Shown piece by piece: positions 2,573 to 15,192 of a stretch of 64,000 nt of DNA. A program made the position numbers and the translations under genes. The stretch lies in contig CANRKR010000001.1 of NCBI GenBank assembly GCA_947631275.1, forward strand, positions 40,384 to 104,383, in the 5' to 3' direction. Origin of the DNA: an uncultured Akkermansia sp. Lineage in GTDB: Bacteria; Verrucomicrobiota; Verrucomicrobiia; Verrucomicrobiales; Akkermansiaceae. Position 1 is the stretch's first letter. The number at the start of each line of letters is the position of its first letter. The notes beneath the pieces were generated by a model that ran no database searches, was not told where the DNA came from, and saw only the letters and a list, made by a program, of their open reading frames with translations.

Positions 2573-5500
2573 GGTAGATTATTTTCTCAATTATGTCTGT
2601 TAGCACATCAATATTCTCTGAAATCACTTCCGAAGTCGGGTTGAGTTTCAAGATTATTCCCTTCAATTCTTCTCGAGAGTAGGGATGCGTCTGTCGTTCA
2701 TATTCGACCCATACCTCTTGTCCGTCTTTCACGGGCATTTCATAGTACCACGGTTTGTCGTGCCACACCGCAATAGGTGAGGAGAGAATCTCCTTTCCGT
2801 CAATTTTGATGGATTTATAGTCAATCCATACCGGGAACCTGTTGCCTTCAAATCGCATGTCAGGTCCCCGAAAATTAATTGAAAGCTTTCCGTTTTGAAT
2901 GACAGAAATCTTTATTTTTCCCTCGCTCGCTGCGCTTGTCAGAACTCTCCCCTCGCCCTGTGTATTCCTGAACCAGCTTGGGGAGGTGATCTTACTACCC
3001 TGAGCTTCAATTGTAACGGTGTTATCCTTATTCCCTAGGTTCTTTATATCTACGCGCAAGACATCCATTCTTGCCCAAATATATCGACCGAGACGACGAG
3101 TCAAGGCTTTGTAATTAAGCAAAACACGAGGTAACGATAGGAAAGCTATAAGGAGATGGGCATCTAAGTAACTCGAAAAATGACAAGAAGTCTTACCGTA
3201 TTTAGCAATTAATTTCTTTATTGCCAAATCATATGTCTTCTCTTCTGTTTCTCTCCTATGAGCATGGTACATATTTAGGCACCGTACCAGATAATCTTTT
3301 TTGTAGTTGTTGTAAATTAGTCCATCAATATGAATATTTTTTAAATATCCCAACACTATATCCGTTACCTCAAAGAAATCCACAAAATGTTTGTTCAAAT
3401 TCTGCGATGTAGAATCCTTACGAATCCTTCGTCTGTAATACTCTTCGGAATCAATAGAAACCCGAGCAGCCTTCGTCAAAGATTTCACCAAAAACACATC
3501 GTCTCCATAATGTAAACTGGGAGGAAATTCGACGTTATATTTTTTGAGGAAGGCGTTCCGATACAGCGTTAAACATGGACTCACCGGTATTTTGCATGCG
3601 TTCTCTTTAAGACTTCGCAAACTAAATATCTTTTTTCCTTTCAAGGACGATAATATTGCTCCATGTGTCCAGTAGGAATTTTCCTGCCTGACTCGGGGCG
3701 TCTCTGTAAAATCGTACCCTGAAAAACACAGCATGTCTAAATCATTTCCTCTTGCATTTTTATATAATTTCTCGCAAGTATCTTCCCTGATTAAGTCATC
3801 GGAATCGACGAACTGAACGTACTCCCCGCGTGCTAATTTCAACGCCGTATTCCGAGAGCAGGCCAGTCCCTGATTTTTCTGATTCATCAGGATAACTCGC
3901 CTATCTTTTTGGGCATACTCCTCCAAAATCTCCAAGGAGCCATCGGTAGAACCGTCGTTGACACAAATAATTTCTATCTCTTTGAGAGTTTGATGGACAA
4001 TGCTATCCATACAATCTTGCAAATACTTTTCAGCATTGAAGACACATACAATAATTGAGATTTTTTTCTTGTTAAATCTGTCCAGAAAAAAGTTGAGCGG
4101 TTTGTTGTCGGTGTTGTACAAGTTTCCACTATGGCTCAATTGTGAGAAGTGGAAATAGTCATCGGGTGTGTAATTTTCAACAAAAGAATATAACAAATTA
4201 AGGACGGCTTCTTTATCCAAGAGCACGTCGTCCTCGGGAAAATGTTGAGCAAACTTCTTGGCGAACCCTAAAATGCCCCCTGCCATTTTTGAATAAATGT
4301 CACATCTTTCCCGTTCGAGAGTAGAACAATCTGTAAATACCGGTCGGTTATTGCTCAGCATGTTAACAGGGGCTGTGGGCGCAGAGATTAATGTTTCCAC
4401 TAAGAAATTAATTCCCTCCACTCGATGAGGACGACCCCAAATTGCATGATACGGGATTTTGTCATCTTCTGTCTTGTTGGCCAACCAATATATTCCTCTC
4501 AGCGTTTTTCCGTTGAGCAGGTTCGTCAAATACTTTTGTGCCGTACAATTTATTGTTGTTAAATCAACAAGACCTATGACTTTACCGCGTATACCTTGGT
4601 TGTCTAAGTATGATCGATACTGTTCACTTGCATCCGATGCATTTAAGTTTTTAATCAACCCTCTTGAAGCATAGATGTAATGCGTTTTTACAGGCTTCTC
4701 TGAAAGGAGATTGTAAACTTTTTCTAAAATGTATCCGTCTCTGGCGATAAATAACAATTCTTCGATGCCGTGTTCCTTTATGTTTCTCTCGACAAATTGA
4801 GTCATCAGAACAGCTATCGGACCGCCAAGAGCGTATCCTATATTATACCAATAATCTCTCGGGGATATGCACCTGAGCAGAGATAGTAAAACTGAAACGG
4901 ATAATGAGTTTTTTCTATTTGCATAGCTTGTTATATATGGCTCAATTGCATTGCTTTTATATCTTCTTAGAAAAAAAGCCTTAATGCCTAACCCTTTCGG
5001 CACAAGCCAATCTGATTGTTCGTTGTCACCGACATGAAACAATTCACTTGGTTTAATTTTTAAATCATCACATACATATTTAAACAGGTTCCCGGTTCTC
5101 TTTGTCTTCTTGACTTCACTTGACAAGTAAATTTTATCGTAGCCTTCAATCCCCCTTTCACTTAAAATGTCAGAAATAACAGACCTGCTCAAATACATAT
5201 CTGACGTCAGCACGATTTTTGTCCCGGCTTTTCTAAAATAATCAAAAAGGTACTTAGTTTTTTCGTTTACAAAGAGCTTTTCTTTTTCTAGCTCTACTTC
5301 TTTTTGCATCAAAAATTGCACATCTGAAGGCATCAAGGCATATATATCGCCCAATGTGATTTCTTCTCCTTCTTTAATTTTTGTACGTGCAAGCTTTTCC
5401 GCGTTCATTCTTATTCCTGCAAAATCCTTCTTGACATACTTTTCCTCCAGATGCAGGAATAAGTCAGAAGGCTTATTGTAAGGTCTGAACAACAACGTGT

Positions 5501-6647
5501 CAAATATGTCAAAAGAAACCACCTTACACGCAGACTCATCATATGCCTTAATAATCTGAGTGACATCATCTTCTACGGGAAACAAGTGAACTAATTCTTT
5601 ATACTTTTCTGCTAAATCCTGGCTGAGAAAGTAACTATCAGGTAAATTTAGAGGAAGATCAAAAAGGTTTGCCTTGACGACAGCATCCACCAACTGTTTC
5701 TTTGAATCAGGATTGTCTATAATCCTGATATTCCAGGCAAGATGATTACAGCATAAATTGACAAAACTTCGCTTATATACCTCGTATATTTTTTCTTCCT
5801 TTAACCTGTTTTGGAGCCCTTGAAGGACGTAATAGATGTTGAGAGACGCCGAATTACGAGTCTCCTTCGCCGTTAATGTGCTTCCTGAATTGGTTCTGTA
5901 ATGCAGCAGCACCCTTTTTATCACCGATATGCGCCGTGCTAAGGCCAAACTAACACAGACAAAATAAGTGTCATTGGTGTGCTTTATACTCTGGTAGCGT
6001 ATATGGAATTGATTAACGAACTCTCTCCTGAATAATTTGTTCCATGGCCAATTGTTGGTTATGTTGAAAATACAATCACACACTTCCCGTGGGCTAAATT
6101 CATTCTTCCTGGGAAGGAGATGTTCATTGAGTATCCATCGTGGAGATTCAAATTTTTTCGTTTGATTGTTATAGAAATTGACATTATATATCACGACATC
6201 AGAATCGCTTTTCCTTGCCGTGCGATATGCCTCCTCCAACATATCTTTTTCGAAGAAATCGTCAGCATCCAAAAAACTTAAGTACTCTCCTCTTGCAACC
6301 GCGAGTCCTGCGTTACGTGCCACGCCCGCATACAAATTGCTCTGGGTTAAAATCGTGATTCTCCTATCTTTCCTTGCGTATTCCTTTAAAATTTCCAACG
6401 AGGCATCCGTGGATCCATCATTGACGCAAATAATTTCTATTTCCTTGAGAGTTTGTCCGATAAGACTTCCCAAGCATTCTCGCAAATAGTCCCCCGCATT
6501 ATACACGGGTATAATGATGGACACCTTTGGCACATACCCAATCTCATTTTGCACAATGATTCGTGTCGTCGTGACTGCTTCTCCCCTCGCATTTTGAACC
6601 TGAATGGTTCCAGCCTCTGTAGTCTGTGGTTTTATATTATGATCCAT
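2562..6647 (-). CDS. Multidomain glycosyltransferase: GT2 - HAD-like - GT2 - C-terminal module
   Basis: Two GT2 signatures (VSIIIPVYNAGDYL; ISIIVCVFNAEKYL) and a HAD-like section (SFDIFDTLLFRP ... HVGDNEQSDW). Confidence 0.85.
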   Translation of the reverse strand: MDHNIKPQTTEAGTIQVQNARGEAVTTTRIIVQNEIGYVPKVSIIIPVYNAGDYLRECLGSLIGQTLKEIEIICVNDGSTDASLEILKEYARKDRRITILTQSNLYAGVARNAGLAVARGEYLSFLDADDFFEKDMLEEAYRTARKSDSDVVIYNVNFYNNQTKKFESPRWILNEHLLPRKNEFSPREVCDCIFNITNNWPWNKLFRREFVNQFHIRYQSIKHTNDTYFVCVSLALARRISVIKRVLLHYRTNSGSTLTAKETRNSASLNIYYVLQGLQNRLKEEKIYEVYKRSFVNLCCNHLAWNIRIIDNPDSKKQLVDAVVKANLFDLPLNLPDSYFLSQDLAEKYKELVHLFPVEDDVTQIIKAYDESACKVVSFDIFDTLLFRPYNKPSDLFLHLEEKYVKKDFAGIRMNAEKLARTKIKEGEEITLGDIYALMPSDVQFLMQKEVELEKEKLFVNEKTKYLFDYFRKAGTKIVLTSDMYLSRSVISDILSERGIEGYDKIYLSSEVKKTKRTGNLFKYVCDDLKIKPSELFHVGDNEQSDWLVPKGLGIKAFFLRRYKSNAIEPYITSYANRKNSLSVSVLLSLLRCISPRDYWYNIGYALGGPIAVLMTQFVERNIKEHGIEELLFIARDGYILEKVYNLLSEKPVKTHYIYASRGLIKNLNASDASEQYRSYLDNQGIRGKVIGLVDLTTINCTAQKYLTNLLNGKTLRGIYWLANKTEDDKIPYHAIWGRPHRVEGINFLVETLISAPTAPVNMLSNNRPVFTDCSTLERERCDIYSKMAGGILGFAKKFAQHFPEDDVLLDKEAVLNLLYSFVENYTPDDYFHFSQLSHSGNLYNTDNKPLNFFLDRFNKKKISIIVCVFNAEKYLQDCMDSIVHQTLKEIEIICVNDGSTDGSLEILEEYAQKDRRVILMNQKNQGLACSRNTALKLARGEYVQFVDSDDLIREDTCEKLYKNARGNDLDMLCFSGYDFTETPRVRQENSYWTHGAILSSLKGKKIFSLRSLKENACKIPVSPCLTLYRNAFLKKYNVEFPPSLHYGDDVFLVKSLTKAARVSIDSEEYYRRRIRKDSTSQNLNKHFVDFFEVTDIVLGYLKNIHIDGLIYNNYKKDYLVRCLNMYHAHRRETEEKTYDLAIKKLIAKYGKTSCHFSSYLDAHLLIAFLSLPRVLLNYKALTRRLGRYIWARMDVLRVDIKNLGNKDNTVTIEAQGSKITSPSWFRNTQGEGRVLTSAASEGKIKISVIQNGKLSINFRGPDMRFEGNRFPVWIDYKSIKIDGKEILSSPIAVWHDKPWYYEMPVKDGQEVWVEYERQTHPYSREELKGIILKLNPTSEVISENIDVLTDIIEKIIYHAK

Positions 6648-6701: not shown

Positions 6702-9236
6702 CTAGACAGGGTATTTTGCATGGCTGATTATTTGTTCGATTTCATCTGTTAGCATATCAATGTTTTTCCTGACTACTTTTGATCCAGAATTTAGTTTCAG
6801 GATGGTTTCCTTCAATTCTTTTCGTGAGTAGAGATGGGGCCGCTGCTCGTACTCAACCCATACATTCTGTCCATCTTTTACGGGCATTTCATAGCGCAAT
6901 GGCTTATCATGCCATGTTTCAACAGGGGAGGATAGTATCTCTTCCCCATCAATCTTGATGGATTTATAGTCAATCCATGCAGAGAACCGCTCGCCTTCAA
7001 AACGTCTGTCAGGTCCCATAAAACTTATGGTAAGCTTTCCAGCACGGATAATTAAAATTTTTAATTTCCCCTTGACAGCTGAGTTTAATAAAACGGTTCC
7101 TGCTCCCTGTGTATTCCTGAACCAGCTAGGCGTTGAAACCGTACCATCTTGCGTTTCAACAACAACGGCATTTTCCTCTATGCCGATATTCTTAATATCA
7201 ATGCGTGCCAAGTGTAATTGATTTTGAATGGAATTAGTATATAGTGACATAGTAATCTTCGATAGACAATGTCTCCTATGCCAATTCGATAATAAGCACA
7301 TATAGGGTGCCAGTCTTGATTTCTTTTCGAGTTTATAATATTCACCCGTATCTATGTCGTAGGCTAACTCGGGAAGATTGATGAATCTTCCCATCATGAG
7401 ATTATATTTTTCATTATTCCAACGCCCACTCCCACTTGAACGAGTGAAAGTCATTTCGCCAAATTTAATTGTCCCATCATTTAAGCGATATAAATCAACA
7501 CATACGAAAGGAAAACCTTGGCAACACGTTTTAGCAATCCACACCATCTCATCGAAATTGTCCGGTTTTGCTAACGCATGCTCGTAGAGTGGATGATCAT
7601 AATAAAATGGCTGACGTTTCCAGCTCAAATCGTAAAAGACCATTTTTAAATTGGCAGAGAAATCATCCCGAAACTGCATATATTTAACCTCTCCGTTAAA
7701 GCACCAAAATTTGTAATCATATAAATTCTGTCCATCATTAGTAACGTACTGCTCAATTATTATCTTGGGAACAATATCTCGATAATGGAGCTCAAACCCG
7801 ACCCTAGAAGCATAATTCTCATGCATCCATCTATCCACCTTCTGCTTAGCATCTGCGAGATCAAGCTGAGATTTGTCTTTGACTACAATATTATAACCAG
7901 AGCCATGGTTACATTTGATGACGAATTGATCGGGTAGCTTATCAAAGTCTATATCTTCAAATCGATCATAAACACCCAGCAATGGAATAAGATATTTCTC
8001 GCCAATTTTTTCTTTGACCCATTCGCGTACAAGATATTTATCCGACAGCCTTGTCTTGGTGGGAGTTGAGTCGTAAAGCTTAAGCCACTGTATTTTATCA
8101 TTAAAAGTCTCAGGATTGTCAAGATTGAGGAATCGACCGGTTGTTTCTAAATACCACCCTCTTAAACAGCGAGGATAAAAATCATGCAATTTAACTTCCT
8201 TTAGAAAATCTTTGCTCTCTCTAGGTAATCTAAAATCATTTGATAACTCCTCGTGCAACCTATATAGTCTGCGTCTATACCTGCATTGATGTACAACGGG
8301 GAGTGCTTTAAATATATTCACAGACCACGTCAAATAATTACTAAGAATATAGTGTGATGTTGTTTGAAAAAAAGCTTGAGAGCTTACTAATTTTGCCACA
8401 TGACGTATAATTTCTATATAATCGTTAAAGAAAAGGCTCCAATTCTGTGTTATTGATGTACCGCGCACAGTACGATTATAGAGCACTTTTCTAATGATTC
8501 CATATCTCTTTATTGAAGATAAAGCCTTTAGCACAAATAAATTATCTTCATAAAATAAACCTTCAGGAAAAACCAAAGAGTTTTCAATTAAGAATTCCGT
8601 TTTGTAAAAAAATCGGCAGGATGAAATTGGAATTTTGTGGACAATATGACTGATATCATCTGACGTGTAATACTCTTTTTCTTCTGATATATAACTTATT
8701 ATTTGTGCCGACAATTGAAAAAATCGACCATTTGACTCATCATAGTTGCGCCCCTCGAAATTAACCATATCCAAATCGAAGCGGATTGAATACTCATAAA
8801 GGAGCTCAAGAGCGTTTTCTGTCAACCAATCGTCAGAATCTAAGAAAGAAATATATTTTCCTCGAGCGATTTTGAGAGCGTTGTTTCTTGTGCGGGAAAG
8901 TCCCTGATTTTTCTGAGTAGCAACAACAATCCTAGAGTCTTTCTCGGCGTATTCCGACAAAATTTCCAAGGAGTTATCGGTGGAACCATCATTAACACAG
9001 ATAATTTCTATTTCTTTGAGAGTTTGATTTACAACAGAATCCAAGCACTTCCTCAAGTATTTATCAGTGTTATACACCGGAATGATGACCGACACCTTGG
9101 GTATATAATCTACTTTATTTCCTTTTTGAACAACGACATGTGCCGTTGCATCTTGCTCTCCCTCCGTATTCTGGACCTGAGTGGTTTTGTAATGATGAGG
9201 TGTGTCCTCCGTGGGCTGTGCTCTCGTATTATCCAT
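6702..9236 (-). CDS. Glycosyltransferase GT2 fused to a TupA-like ATP-grasp domain, with a C-terminal module shared with the preceding protein
   Basis: VSVIIPVYNTDKYL...VNDGSTDNS; NDKIQWLKLYD...VIKCNHGSGYN typical of TupA-like ATP-grasp. Confidence 0.85.
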   Translation of the reverse strand: MDNTRAQPTEDTPHHYKTTQVQNTEGEQDATAHVVVQKGNKVDYIPKVSVIIPVYNTDKYLRKCLDSVVNQTLKEIEIICVNDGSTDNSLEILSEYAEKDSRIVVATQKNQGLSRTRNNALKIARGKYISFLDSDDWLTENALELLYEYSIRFDLDMVNFEGRNYDESNGRFFQLSAQIISYISEEKEYYTSDDISHIVHKIPISSCRFFYKTEFLIENSLVFPEGLFYEDNLFVLKALSSIKRYGIIRKVLYNRTVRGTSITQNWSLFFNDYIEIIRHVAKLVSSQAFFQTTSHYILSNYLTWSVNIFKALPVVHQCRYRRRLYRLHEELSNDFRLPRESKDFLKEVKLHDFYPRCLRGWYLETTGRFLNLDNPETFNDKIQWLKLYDSTPTKTRLSDKYLVREWVKEKIGEKYLIPLLGVYDRFEDIDFDKLPDQFVIKCNHGSGYNIVVKDKSQLDLADAKQKVDRWMHENYASRVGFELHYRDIVPKIIIEQYVTNDGQNLYDYKFWCFNGEVKYMQFRDDFSANLKMVFYDLSWKRQPFYYDHPLYEHALAKPDNFDEMVWIAKTCCQGFPFVCVDLYRLNDGTIKFGEMTFTRSSGSGRWNNEKYNLMMGRFINLPELAYDIDTGEYYKLEKKSRLAPYMCLLSNWHRRHCLSKITMSLYTNSIQNQLHLARIDIKNIGIEENAVVVETQDGTVSTPSWFRNTQGAGTVLLNSAVKGKLKILIIRAGKLTISFMGPDRRFEGERFSAWIDYKSIKIDGEEILSSPVETWHDKPLRYEMPVKDGQNVWVEYEQRPHLYSRKELKETILKLNSGSKVVRKNIDMLTDEIEQIISHAKYPV

Positions 9237-9627: not shown

Positions 9628-10881
9628 TCATCGTTTCTTGAAAAAGCGGAAGTCTAATATGTGGTGCGAGCGCAGCCCACTTGCCACTCGTTTCCAATCC
9701 GCTGCATCAAACTGCGGCCATTCCGTGAGAATAACCAATACATCGGCTCCAAGCGCTGCGCTGTACATATCCGGCGCGTATTGAACGCTGTCGCCCAAGA
9801 TGCGCCGCGCCGTTGTCATGGCTTGCGGGTCGTAGACGCACACGTCCACGTGGTGACTCGCCAGTCGCTGCACAATCTCCACGGCGGGACTTTCCCGGCA
9901 GTCGTCCGTCCCCTCCTTGAAGGCCAGTCCCCAGATGGCGATCTTCGGAGAGGGCACATCTTCCACCTCTTTCAGGATGCGCTGCGCCATGTGTTCACGG
10001 CGCTTTTTGTTCCCCTTGATGGCAGCACGGATAAGCGAGAGCTCCACCCCCAGTTTGCGCGCCATGTGTTCGATGGCCTTTGTGTCCTTCGGGAAGCAGG
10101 ATCCGCCGTAGCCCGGTCCGGGTTTGAGGAAAGCCGGGCCGATGCGCGAGTCCAGACCCATGCCCTGCGCCACCTCGTGGATGTTGGCTCCCGCCGCTTC
10201 GCAGAAGTCCGCCATCTCGTTGATGTAATGGATCTTCACCGCCAGGAAAGCATTGGAGGCGTATTTGATGGCCTCCGAGGAACGGCGCGCCACGAAGAGA
10301 AATCTGGGAGCATTGGGCAGAGGGGCGTAGAGCTCGCGAATCAGCTCGCGGGCTTTCTGCGATTGCGTACCCACCACGATGCGCACCGGATGAAAAAAGT
10401 CATGCACAGCGTAGCCTTCTCTCAGAAACTCCGGCAGGGAGATTACCTCGACCCGCGCCTTCGGGTTGCTCTTACGGATGAGTTTTTCGACTTCATCCCC
10501 CGTCCCCACCGGTACCGTGGACTTGACCGCTACAACGGCATCCGTCGGCAAAAAGGGCGCCATCTCCCTCACCGCTCCGAACAGGTAGGAGAGATTGGCT
10601 TCACCCGTGGCAGGATTCTCGGGCGTCCCGACCGCCAACATCACGATTCGCGCTCCGCTCACGCCTTCTTTCATGTCATCCGTGAAAGTCAGTCGTCCGG
10701 ACTCCAGCTCGGTCTTCAAAAACTCCTCGAGTCCCTCTTCAAACAGCGTCGTCTGCCCGGCTCGCAGCTTCTCCACCTTCTCGTGGTCGCAATCAATGCA
10801 GCTGACATCGTGACCAAGCCTCGCCAGTCCCGCTCCCGTGGGAAGCCCCACATATCCTGTCCCAATTACAGATATTTTCAT
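9628..10881 (-). CDS. ugd: UDP-glucose/UDP-sugar 6-dehydrogenase
   Basis: MKISVIGTGYVGLPTGAGLA, PGPGYGGSCFPKDTKA catalytic Cys motif. Confidence 0.93.
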   Translation of the reverse strand: MKISVIGTGYVGLPTGAGLARLGHDVSCIDCDHEKVEKLRAGQTTLFEEGLEEFLKTELESGRLTFTDDMKEGVSGARIVMLAVGTPENPATGEANLSYLFGAVREMAPFLPTDAVVAVKSTVPVGTGDEVEKLIRKSNPKARVEVISLPEFLREGYAVHDFFHPVRIVVGTQSQKARELIRELYAPLPNAPRFLFVARRSSEAIKYASNAFLAVKIHYINEMADFCEAAGANIHEVAQGMGLDSRIGPAFLKPGPGYGGSCFPKDTKAIEHMARKLGVELSLIRAAIKGNKKRREHMAQRILKEVEDVPSPKIAIWGLAFKEGTDDCRESPAVEIVQRLASHHVDVCVYDPQAMTTARRILGDSVQYAPDMYSAALGADVLVILTEWPQFDAADWKRVASGLRSHHILDFRFFKKR

Positions 10882-11835: not shown

Positions 11836-12213
11836 TCACACCTCCTCATCAATGCTCCAATGAATGTCCCACGTTCCGTCGCGCTGTTGCCTCAACGCAT
11901 ACGCCATGCACAAACCGCTCGGCTTGTCGTCGTTGATGAGGATACGCTCTCCCACGGGCGCTCCGCAGATGAGCCAATCGTAGCGGATTCCTTCTCGATG
12001 CAAAAAGTCTTCCAATGCTGCCCTGTGTTCCTCCTTGCGACTCGTGATGAGCACCACCATGTCCCCCTCCGGCAATTGAGCAAAAAACTCCTTCACCCCC
12101 GGCAGCAGGGTGTCTCCGCCGTGCAGGTGCCCGTTGTGCACGCAGAGCGTACCGTCCACATCCAGAATCCAGGTGTGGGGCAGAGGAGAGAGGGTGAGAG
12201 AGTCGGGGGTCAT
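11836..12213 (-). CDS. HAD-superfamily phosphatase-like protein (start trimmed to ATG at 12213)
   Basis: WILDVDGTLCVH motif I, VVLITSR motif II, ILINDDKPSG; ATGA overlap with the upstream stop. Confidence 0.75.
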   Translation of the reverse strand: MTPDSLTLSPLPHTWILDVDGTLCVHNGHLHGGDTLLPGVKEFFAQLPEGDMVVLITSRKEEHRAALEDFLHREGIRYDWLICGAPVGERILINDDKPSGLCMAYALRQQRDGTWDIHWSIDEEV

Positions 12214-13775
12214 GCGCGGGGTTGTTCTTCGTCGAGGTATTTCTGCAGCTCCAGCAGCCCTTTGTAGAAGGCGCCGCAGATGGCGTCGTAGTCCTCCCAT
12301 GCGTAGGTGGTGAGGCTCAGCCAGATGATGGCGTGCAGCAGCTTGATCTTTCGGCGATCGGCGCCGCACAATTCAAAAAAGTCCTCTTCCAGCGCACTCC
12401 ATCCATTGGAGACGATTTCCAGCTCCACGCCGTCTTCGCCGATCTCCAGAGAAAAGTTTTTACGGTTGAACTGGTCGTAGTCGCCCACCACGCTGTAGTA
12501 GAGCTTCGCCCAGTCGTAATCTGCATCGCCGAAGAGAGCAGTTTTGCCGAAGTAGCCGCGCGGGTCGATGAGCACGGGGCGCACCCCCTCCGTTTCCAGC
12601 AGCATGTTGTGGAACGTGCAGTCCCCGTGGATGAAGTGGAACTCACTCGGGAACATACGGCGCATCTGCGCCATGATTTCATCCTTGACGGCGTAGATGT
12701 TGCGGCACCGCTTGCCGTTGACCTCCACCCACTCCTCCTGCGCAAAGGGGACGAGCTGCTGCACTTTAGCGAGGCGGTCGAAGGTTTTCGTGATGTAGTT
12801 GTTCTCGCAGTCTGCCTGATTCGCCGGGGTAGTCGGAGCGAGGGCATGCAGCTGCTTGAGGGCATCCACGATCTTCACCAGCAGGGCTCGCTTGAACCCA
12901 CGCGTCAGGAAGGCGTATTCGTACACATTCCTGCCGCGAACCTTCTCCATCACCAGCGGGGTGTAGCCGTAGATCTGCGGGATGTTCTCGTAGCCCAACT
13001 CTTTGGCCTTGCGGTACCAGTTCGCCTCATCCGCGGCAAGTCGCTCACCCTGCTCGTTGATGGGGTATTTGATCACCACATCTCCCTTGAAGTCCACCTT
13101 ATTGAACGGACGGCATTTCGGACGGTTCAACTCGTTCTGGAAGTAGGAGAGCATGGTGCCTACCTCCAGCCCGCCGTACATATCCAGCCGCCGGAAGGAT
13201 AATCCTTTCCCCGCGAGATAACGCACAAACTCCCCTTCCTGCGGCACATCGGAGATCTGGTTCTTATCCCGGAAAATGAACAGCCCCGCCACGCCGTTCT
13301 CAGCGGAAGATTCTTCCGCAAGCTTCCCGTCGCGATACGACCAGCGGCACGGGAAGTCCCTGGAGATGCCAAGATAGTTGTCCTCCACCTTCTCGGGAAT
13401 GCTTGTGACATCCGACAGGATGAGATCGCACCAGATGAGCATGAAGGGGACACCGCCCGGCACTCGCTGCAGAGCTTCTTCAATCCCGGAACAGGTGCCT
13501 TTCTTTGCCGCGTCGATCACCTCGTAATCGACTTCGCAAAATGCCGCCAGATAACGTTTGAAGGTTTCCTTCTGGTAGTCCGCAATGATGAGGAACTTCG
13601 CCTGCGGATAGCGCTCAAACAGGTGGAAAATCATCGGACGATTGTCCACGGGCACCAGAGCCTTGGGCTTGTTGGTGGTGAGCGTTTCCAGCCGCGACCC
13701 CCTTCCGCCCGCCTGCACGATGATGTAGGGGAGACGCCCTCCCGATCCGGACTCAACTGTTGTCGTTTCTCTCAT
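12210..13775 (-). CDS. Bifunctional sugar/choline-type nucleotidyltransferase - phosphotransferase (APH/choline kinase-like) fusion
   Basis: N-term IIVQAGGRGSRLETLTTNKPKALVPV; C-term FIHGDCTFHNMLLE...LIDPRGYFGK. Confidence 0.8.
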   Translation of the reverse strand: MRETTTVESGSGGRLPYIIVQAGGRGSRLETLTTNKPKALVPVDNRPMIFHLFERYPQAKFLIIADYQKETFKRYLAAFCEVDYEVIDAAKKGTCSGIEEALQRVPGGVPFMLIWCDLILSDVTSIPEKVEDNYLGISRDFPCRWSYRDGKLAEESSAENGVAGLFIFRDKNQISDVPQEGEFVRYLAGKGLSFRRLDMYGGLEVGTMLSYFQNELNRPKCRPFNKVDFKGDVVIKYPINEQGERLAADEANWYRKAKELGYENIPQIYGYTPLVMEKVRGRNVYEYAFLTRGFKRALLVKIVDALKQLHALAPTTPANQADCENNYITKTFDRLAKVQQLVPFAQEEWVEVNGKRCRNIYAVKDEIMAQMRRMFPSEFHFIHGDCTFHNMLLETEGVRPVLIDPRGYFGKTALFGDADYDWAKLYYSVVGDYDQFNRKNFSLEIGEDGVELEIVSNGWSALEEDFFELCGADRRKIKLLHAIIWLSLTTYAWEDYDAICGAFYKGLLELQKYLDEEQPRA

Positions 13776-13800: not shown

Positions 13801-14574
13801 TCAGCCTGTGATCGTTTCCTCCTCACTCACCCACGGAAAGAAATAGGGTGATAATTTGTTCTCTACCGCTGCCGAGAGTTTCCGAACCCGGTACACGCCC
13901 CTCTCCCACGTGTCCGCCTGCAGGCACGTCTCGGGAATGACACTCTGCGCCGTCCCATCGTGCGGGATGATGTACCAGCCACGATTCGTCGGATCGGCTA
14001 TGGCCATGTAAAGGTCTCTCCCCCGGCGCTCGTCCGCCCTCTCCCCGGTCGCTCTCCCCTTGATCTGCAGCAGCATCACCTCGTTGCCTCCCTCCGGACT
14101 CTCTCTCGTTGCGATCACATCCACCCCCCATGCATCATTCATCACTCGCTGGCATTCGAATCCGTAGTCCGCCAGCAGCGACATCAGCTTCTGGATGCTG
14201 TACGCCTCCTTCCCACGTTCACTCAGCTCCTCGTACCTCACCGGCTCAAAGCGCCGCCCGCGCGGCAGCATCGTCCCTTCTCCCTGCACCGCTGTCTCCT
14301 CCCCCTGCGGTTCCCTCATCAGACTGAACACCATCTGCGTGTCCCTCTGCGTCACCGCCGAGAAGATTTCTCCCCTCTTGTAGTCCGTGTAGAGCGAATA
14401 CTTCTCGCTCGCCGCTCCACGGTCGATCACGTTGATGGCATGCTCGTGAAAGGCTTTCTCTAGCTCCGCCGCCGGGGCCGAAAAGACGCGCCTGTCTCCG
14501 TTGATCGCACACACAAACCAGTACCTCGCGTTGTTGCGCGCCGCCTCGCTCAACTTCTTCGTCCGTATGTTCAT
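13801..14574 (-). CDS. PD-(D/E)XK-like nuclease family protein (ORF extends to a GTG at 14697; ATG at 14574 has a better RBS)
   Basis: YGFECQRVMNDAWGVDVIATRE...EVMLLQIKGRA resembles the PDDEXK core; AGGAGAGG upstream of ATG 14574. Confidence 0.5.
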   Translation of the reverse strand: MNIRTKKLSEAARNNARYWFVCAINGDRRVFSAPAAELEKAFHEHAINVIDRGAASEKYSLYTDYKRGEIFSAVTQRDTQMVFSLMREPQGEETAVQGEGTMLPRGRRFEPVRYEELSERGKEAYSIQKLMSLLADYGFECQRVMNDAWGVDVIATRESPEGGNEVMLLQIKGRATGERADERRGRDLYMAIADPTNRGWYIIPHDGTAQSVIPETCLQADTWERGVYRVRKLSAAVENKLSPYFFPWVSEEETITG

Positions 14575-14707
14575 CCAACACCTCTCCTCGTTCGCCACGC
14601 AGGGCTTGGCGGCGTAGACGGCATATCGGTAGGGTAATTTAATCTTCACGGTTGATTTCACCTTGATTACCTGTCGATGCACCCTCGGATGGCGCACGAC
14701 CGCCGCA

Positions 14708-14904
14708 GTATATCTCTTTCCAAATGCGATGCGCTGGCAACCTTATGATGACTATCTCTCAATCAATAAGTTACCCTATGGAACTTATTTCGGTTTTCGC
14801 AGACCCCTCCTTTCTTTCCGAATGCTTACAGTGTCCCGGAATCCTCATCACTGCGCGTTTTTTTGATTATTTTGACTGGACATCGCATTTGGAAAGAGAT
14901 ATAC
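14708..14904. repeat. Perfect 24-bp inverted repeat pair flanking a 149-bp segment
   Basis: 14708-14731 GTATATCTCTTTCCAAATGCGATG; 14881-14904 CATCGCATTTGGAAAGAGATATAC is its exact reverse complement. Confidence 0.95.
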
Positions 14905-15192
14905 ACCCAAAAATAGACGCTATGAACTTGTCATCAACAATTAATATGATTCATCGTCGACAAGACGAGTAGTCAAAAAGGATCGATCATATCCCGCGAA
15001 AAATGAGCGAATTTGAGACCTAACAGGCTGACCAGCAAACGTAAAAATCAATCATTCTTCACCGATCCCCAAAAATTCCGCCTCGCTCAAGCCCCACATC
15101 CCTGCGGCTTTACCGCACGATCTTCCAAATTTGTGACCCGAAAATTCCAAATCTCAAAATTCGGGCATCCTCCGTGATCGGACAAAAATAGT

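Follow-up and report, generated by a model that had tools for sequence, protein, structure and literature searches.

A putative split-promoter inversion switch upstream of a polysaccharide gene cluster in an uncultured Akkermansia

Introduction

An invertible element with the motif CGGATT..AATCCG adjoins cps1 in Akkermansia muciniphila, and both of its orientations were reported and correlated with the ON/OFF state of the capsule (PMC13343947). PMC13343947 cites Jiang et al. 2019 for the motif, and in PMC11892184 invertons of this kind form group 138 and have a promoter-like motif.

Here we describe an element in a 64,000-nucleotide stretch of DNA from an uncultured Akkermansia sp. (the window), where a sequence-only reading had noted an inverted repeat ahead of polysaccharide genes and proposed an invertible promoter. 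The element is very probably a site-specific inversion switch (inverton) of an Akkermansia class in which a split promoter flips. It shares with the A. muciniphila invertons a size of ~170-200 bp, palindromic arms with a 3-nt centre, a putative -35 just inside one arm, a putative -10 just outside the gene-side arm, and a site upstream of polysaccharide and surface-protein genes. It differs from them in the half-sites of its family (TCGCATT or TCTCTTT rather than CGGATT), in arms of 24 bp that contain most of the -10, and in its eight near-identical copies in the source genome, five of them before a family-2 glycosyltransferase (GT2) gene. The common layout suggests that the two are one type of device and differ in arm sequence; that the promoter is split in this way is our own reading of the sequences. 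Read in this way, the window switch has a variant recombination site and unusually many near-identical copies before glycosyltransferase genes.

In Bacteroides fragilis, several dispersed capsular polysaccharide loci each have their own invertible promoter of similar size; the serine recombinase Mpi acts on them, and the promoter lies wholly inside the invertible segment. The Akkermansia elements resemble this arrangement in that dispersed polysaccharide loci each have their own switch of similar size, whereas their promoter would span the arm and a serine recombinase was not found in the source genome. In the sap system of Campylobacter fetus and the vsp/vsa systems of Mycoplasma, cassettes share one promoter by inversion. 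Cassettes in two Akkermansia relatives (genomes G022 and G007) likewise appear to share one upstream promoter part; unlike sap and vsp/vsa, they would share only the -35 part, each cassette keeping its own -10, and the window locus is a single-gene switch.

The inverted repeat

The sequence GTATATCTCTTTCCAAATGCGATG is found at 14708-14731 on the plus strand and its exact reverse complement at 14881-14904, as the sequence-only reading had reported, together with the 149-bp interior (14732..14880) and the minus-strand polysaccharide genes to the left of the element. The repeat thus brackets a short intergenic segment that precedes a gene. No such repeat appeared in 100 dinucleotide shuffles, and the 24-bp sequence had no further occurrence in the window with up to 3 mismatches; the perfect inverted repeat is real and far beyond chance. 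The partial mirroring previously noticed in the inner 9 nt was also recovered, extending the arms to 33 nt at 88% identity (14708-14740 and 14872-14904). No target-site duplication was detected at the element, in agreement with the earlier observation.

The left, gene-side arm (14708..14731, plus strand) is an imperfect palindrome, TATCTCTTT-CC-AAATGCGAT, and is the putative recombination site, both by the exact repeat and by its fit to a family consensus, TATCKCWTTYNAAATGCGATG. The right, far-side arm (14881..14904) is its minus-strand counterpart. Outside the far arm, ~45 bp (14905-14950) are conserved among the copies in the source genome, and the sequence beyond is unrelated. A conserved stretch occupies the same place in loci L096, L097, L098, L100, L102 and L104, and is present in a diverged copy on contig 58 as well; it could be another promoter or an accessory recombination site.

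Paralogous copies and recombinase genes

The source genome (Akkermansia, 2.1 Mb, 128 contigs, 95.7% completeness) was surveyed for other copies of the 24-mer, a search that the sequence-only reading had proposed. The element occurs there in eight full copies of 196-197 bp, on contigs 1, 4, 7, 20, 23, 44, 105 and 108. Their flanks are homologous on both sides, and on the gene side the homology includes the start of the downstream gene. In five of the eight, a GT2 gene of ~350 codons starts within ~60 bp beyond the gene-side arm. Six copies have identical left and right arms; in the remaining two, the arms differ at a single base.

The end of the interior that reads TCCAGTCAAAAT lies far from the gene in seven of the eight copies, which therefore share one orientation. 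On contig 20, the TCCAGTCAAAAT end adjoins the gene, even though this copy shares flank homology with the others on both sides. By this paralogue comparison the contig-20 interior is in orientation B between homologous flanks, and the window interior is in orientation A. The contig-20 copy precedes a glycosyltransferase remnant and may be a relic, so it shows that an inversion took place in the past and not how often inversion occurs at present. Flipping in the source strain is nevertheless probable. Two diverged elements were also observed in this genome, in L105 (G000:C8:8000-20000, at 5427-5619) and L104 (G000:C58:3000-10248, at 3902-4096); one is flanked by two outward ORFs, of which one is nucleotidyltransferase-like, and the other precedes a 964-codon secreted-protein gene.

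On contigs 7 and 108, a homologue of the window's first cluster gene comes after the GT2 gene. The window locus has lost that GT2 gene: compared with contigs 7 and 108, the GT2 start is fused to the following gene at a shared 10-mer, ACCGTGAAGA. The junction at 14649 corresponds to a precise deletion of the glycosyltransferase gene between two ACCGTGAAGA copies.

The sequence-only reading had seen no recombinase gene in the window and had suggested searching the genome for both types. The absence agrees with the genome search, in which no recombinase adjoined any of the genome's own elements. Tyrosine recombinases were detected (13 PF00589 matches), but no match to the serine type (PF00239) was obtained at 95.7% completeness, and a serine-recombinase switch of the Mpi/Hin type was rejected for this reason. 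The acting enzyme is probably a tyrosine recombinase. For the gene at C36:8613-9065, orthologues were found in the arm-bearing genomes G008 (89%) and G009, G032 and G034 (56-59%); an orthologue at 54% also occurs in G029, which is without arms by the pattern used. This gene is a candidate recombinase and no more. A XerC/D-like gene adjoins an element in G009 but was set aside as the cognate recombinase; this gene type occurs about once per genome, and the adjacency was taken as chance.

These data bear on a reading that we consider unlikely, in which the switch was once active in the genus but is now locked in the source strain, with the window locus OFF and its first glycosyltransferase deleted. 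The shared orientation of seven copies, the loss of GT2 in the window with its degradation at the contig-20 locus, and the lack of a recombinase linked to the strain's own copies are all consistent with such locking. The near-perfect identity of the arms would be unexpected, however, unless recombination or selection had continued.

A proposed promoter split across the recombination site

A plain consensus scan of the window segment returned promoters no more often than in shuffles, and a promoter wholly inside the segment was rejected on this result. The earlier remark that no convincing -35/-10 could be found is resolved by a promoter split across the recombination site, which would explain why scans confined to the segment fail. 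In the window, the sequence TGGACA (14877..14882, plus strand), a 5/6 match to TTGACA, is the putative mobile -35 and now faces away from the polysaccharide genes; a T-rich tract lies upstream of it (14858-14873). The far-side arm would supply a 17-bp spacer (14883..14899, plus strand), followed by a weaker -10, TATACA (14900..14905, plus strand), whose last base comes from the flank. On the gene side, a putative fixed -10, TATACT, occupies 14707..14712 on the minus strand, with its final T at 14707 outside the arm. The corresponding -35 position (14730..14735, minus strand) reads AGCGCA at present, with no match to the consensus, and would read TGGACA after inversion. When the interior was inverted by script, TGGACA-17-TATACT pointed toward the polysaccharide genes. 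Since the -35 end faces away, the cluster is predicted to be OFF as assembled.

The layout was assessed in 70 distinct elements collected from fetched loci, with gene-side ends assigned by simple ORF rules. The sixth -10 base, which is the first flanking base, is T at 45 of 51 gene-side ends and at 13 of 57 others (p=2.8e-12); with one element per homology cluster the counts are 28/33 and 4/29 (p=2e-8). At least 5/6 matches to TTGACA were found at 17-18 bp on one end in 30 of the 70 elements (shuffle mean 7.2, maximum 16), or in 18 of 43 when counted per cluster (shuffle mean 4.1, maximum 10). This enrichment is the support for the window's mobile -35. Sixteen of the 18 per-cluster matches have a spacer of 17, and each other spacer tested, from 10 to 25, gave at most two. 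In single-gene elements, the end with the better -35 is directed toward the gene in 16, away from it in 22 and tied in one. On these statistics, the direction of the promoter is predicted to change with inversion, and transcription of the cluster would start from the split promoter.

A different arrangement, which we regard as quite improbable, would have the segment invert while a fixed promoter outside the far arm (right of 14904) reads through it, the interior serving as a terminator or attenuator in one orientation. The ~45 bp conserved there, in the genome's own copies and in the diverged contig-58 copy, would fit a promoter of this kind. However, no terminator-like hairpin was found in the interior, and both the -35/-10 statistics of the 70 elements and the elements flanked by a gene on either side require a promoter that points outward at the arm.

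That the element is a MITE or the remnant of a deleted insertion sequence spread in the genome, as the sequence-only reading had allowed, is scarcely credible: multiple near-identical ~197-bp copies with terminal inverted repeats are what such an element would leave, but the unit recurs here without target-site duplication, in flanks that the copies share on both sides through the start of the downstream gene and not at unrelated sites, at a position fixed a few bases ahead of genes, with an interior that differs between species while the arms and promoter end are kept and that is inverted on contig 20, so the copies represent duplicated loci and not insertions.

The invertible-promoter reading is instead supported by the homologous flanks, the fixed site by the gene start, the one inverted paralogue and the mixed orientations in the family. 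We propose that a trans-acting enzyme, most likely a tyrosine recombinase, would recombine the 24-bp arms and so flip the 149-bp interior. The AT-rich stretch and the -35 would lie at one end of this interior, the arm would act as a 17-bp spacer, and the first flanking base would complete a -10 situated at the arm's outer edge. With the -35 beside the gene-side -10 (TGGACA-17-TATACT) the cluster would be ON, and with the -35 beside the far-side -10 (TGGACA-17-TATACA) it would be OFF. Each of the eight paralogous copies would switch a surface-polysaccharide locus independently.

Distribution in the genus and multi-cassette arrays

Of 77 Akkermansia species genomes, 34 contain sequences that fit the arm consensus TATCKCWTTYNAAATGCGATG, and some of these have more than 20 arms; none was found in the A. 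muciniphila-like genomes G062-G068. Other species have an arm variant, CGCATT-NNN-AATGCG. The exact arm had no match among named genome contigs and viral contigs, a collection that may omit near relatives. Between species, the interior varies and the arms and promoter end are kept. Most of the 70 elements are situated ahead of GT2 or surface-protein genes; the neighbouring genes encode glycosyltransferases and apparent secreted surface proteins that begin MKLHLPxLLLAALLA or MKKTLIALxALxGxA. Several elements lie between two divergent genes, which in some cases are homologous to each other, a layout that would suit an either/or switch.

In G022 (contigs 26 and 52) and G007 (contig 23), MKKTIIALLALAG gene clusters were found with arms and TATACT upstream, in loci L175 (G022:C26:39000-52000), L176 (G022:C52) and L190 (G007:C23). 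In each MKKTIIALLALAG cluster, a T-rich tract and TGTACA are present on one arm only. Inversion between distant arms would thus pass the -35 from gene to gene, and these arrays of paralogous secreted-protein genes look like a system of mutually exclusive expression. On balance we lean toward a general form of this idea, in which inversion in Akkermansia swaps only the -35, or upstream, half of a promoter, each gene keeps its own -10, and the recombination site serves as the spacer; a single -35 module would then be passed among the surface-protein cassettes of the three arrays.

If these readings are correct, phase variation in Akkermansia extends beyond the capsule switch of human A. muciniphila, and a site variant that 44% of the searched genus genomes carry controls both polysaccharide loci and large surface proteins. 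The ON/OFF state of each locus could be read in sequence from the direction of the -35, and ordinary assemblies and metagenomes would then allow the states of populations to be predicted.

Comparison with A. muciniphila invertons

Gapped CGGATT/AATCCG pairs number 7 in the source genome, as compared to 41-43 in three A. muciniphila-like genomes. The window arm does not have this motif and reads TCTCTTT-..-AAATGCGA. A search with the literal motif CGGATTNNAATCCG was discarded; it gave scattered matches only, and the true spacing in A. muciniphila is 3 nt. G062 is rich in CGGATT-type elements, with arms CGGATT-NNN-AATCCG and TTGAC just inside one arm. With crude gene calls, TA stands one base beyond the arm at 12 of 15 gene ends and 6 of 23 others (p=0.002). 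One such element lies 425 bp upstream of a wza-like gene heading a capsule-like cluster, which was taken as cps1, and its TTGACA faces away. No inverted repeat was present in G062 at the published A. muciniphila inverton coordinates (2092093-2092283), so the coordinates probably differ between assemblies. The window has the same layout, with a putative -35 inside one arm, a 17-bp arm spacer and a putative -10 at or outside the gene-side arm, as defined in the present analysis and not drawn from papers.

Genes of the polysaccharide cluster

The sequence-only reading placed a co-directional run of genes from 14574 to 124. The genes are indeed on the minus strand, but the first most likely starts at GTG 14649, because the paralogues reveal the glycosyltransferase deletion across ACCGTGAAGA. 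This first gene (13801..14649, minus strand) encodes 282 aa with no Pfam or PDB match. It is followed on the same strand by a sugar nucleotidyltransferase with an aminoglycoside-phosphotransferase-like kinase (12210..13775; Pfam NTP_transf_3 and APH) and, as third gene, by a HAD-like phosphatase (11836..12369; weak match). Further minus-strand genes encode, by Pfam, a UDP-glucose/GDP-mannose dehydrogenase (9628..10881) and a GT2 glycosyltransferase with TupA ATP-grasp (6702..9236).

A motif in the first gene product, GVDVI...LLQIKGR, recalls PD-(D/E)XK nucleases by eye, and this identity was rejected given no Pfam or PDB support. One member of the first-gene family has a weak PADLOC match to SspE (4.8e-4). 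Diverged relatives in G008:C63, G009:C43 and G024:C7 adjoin tyrosine recombinase genes, and in the rabbit-MAG copies on G008:C2 and G008:C4 (L058 and L064) a TAG apparently interrupts the first-gene homologue near its C-terminus.
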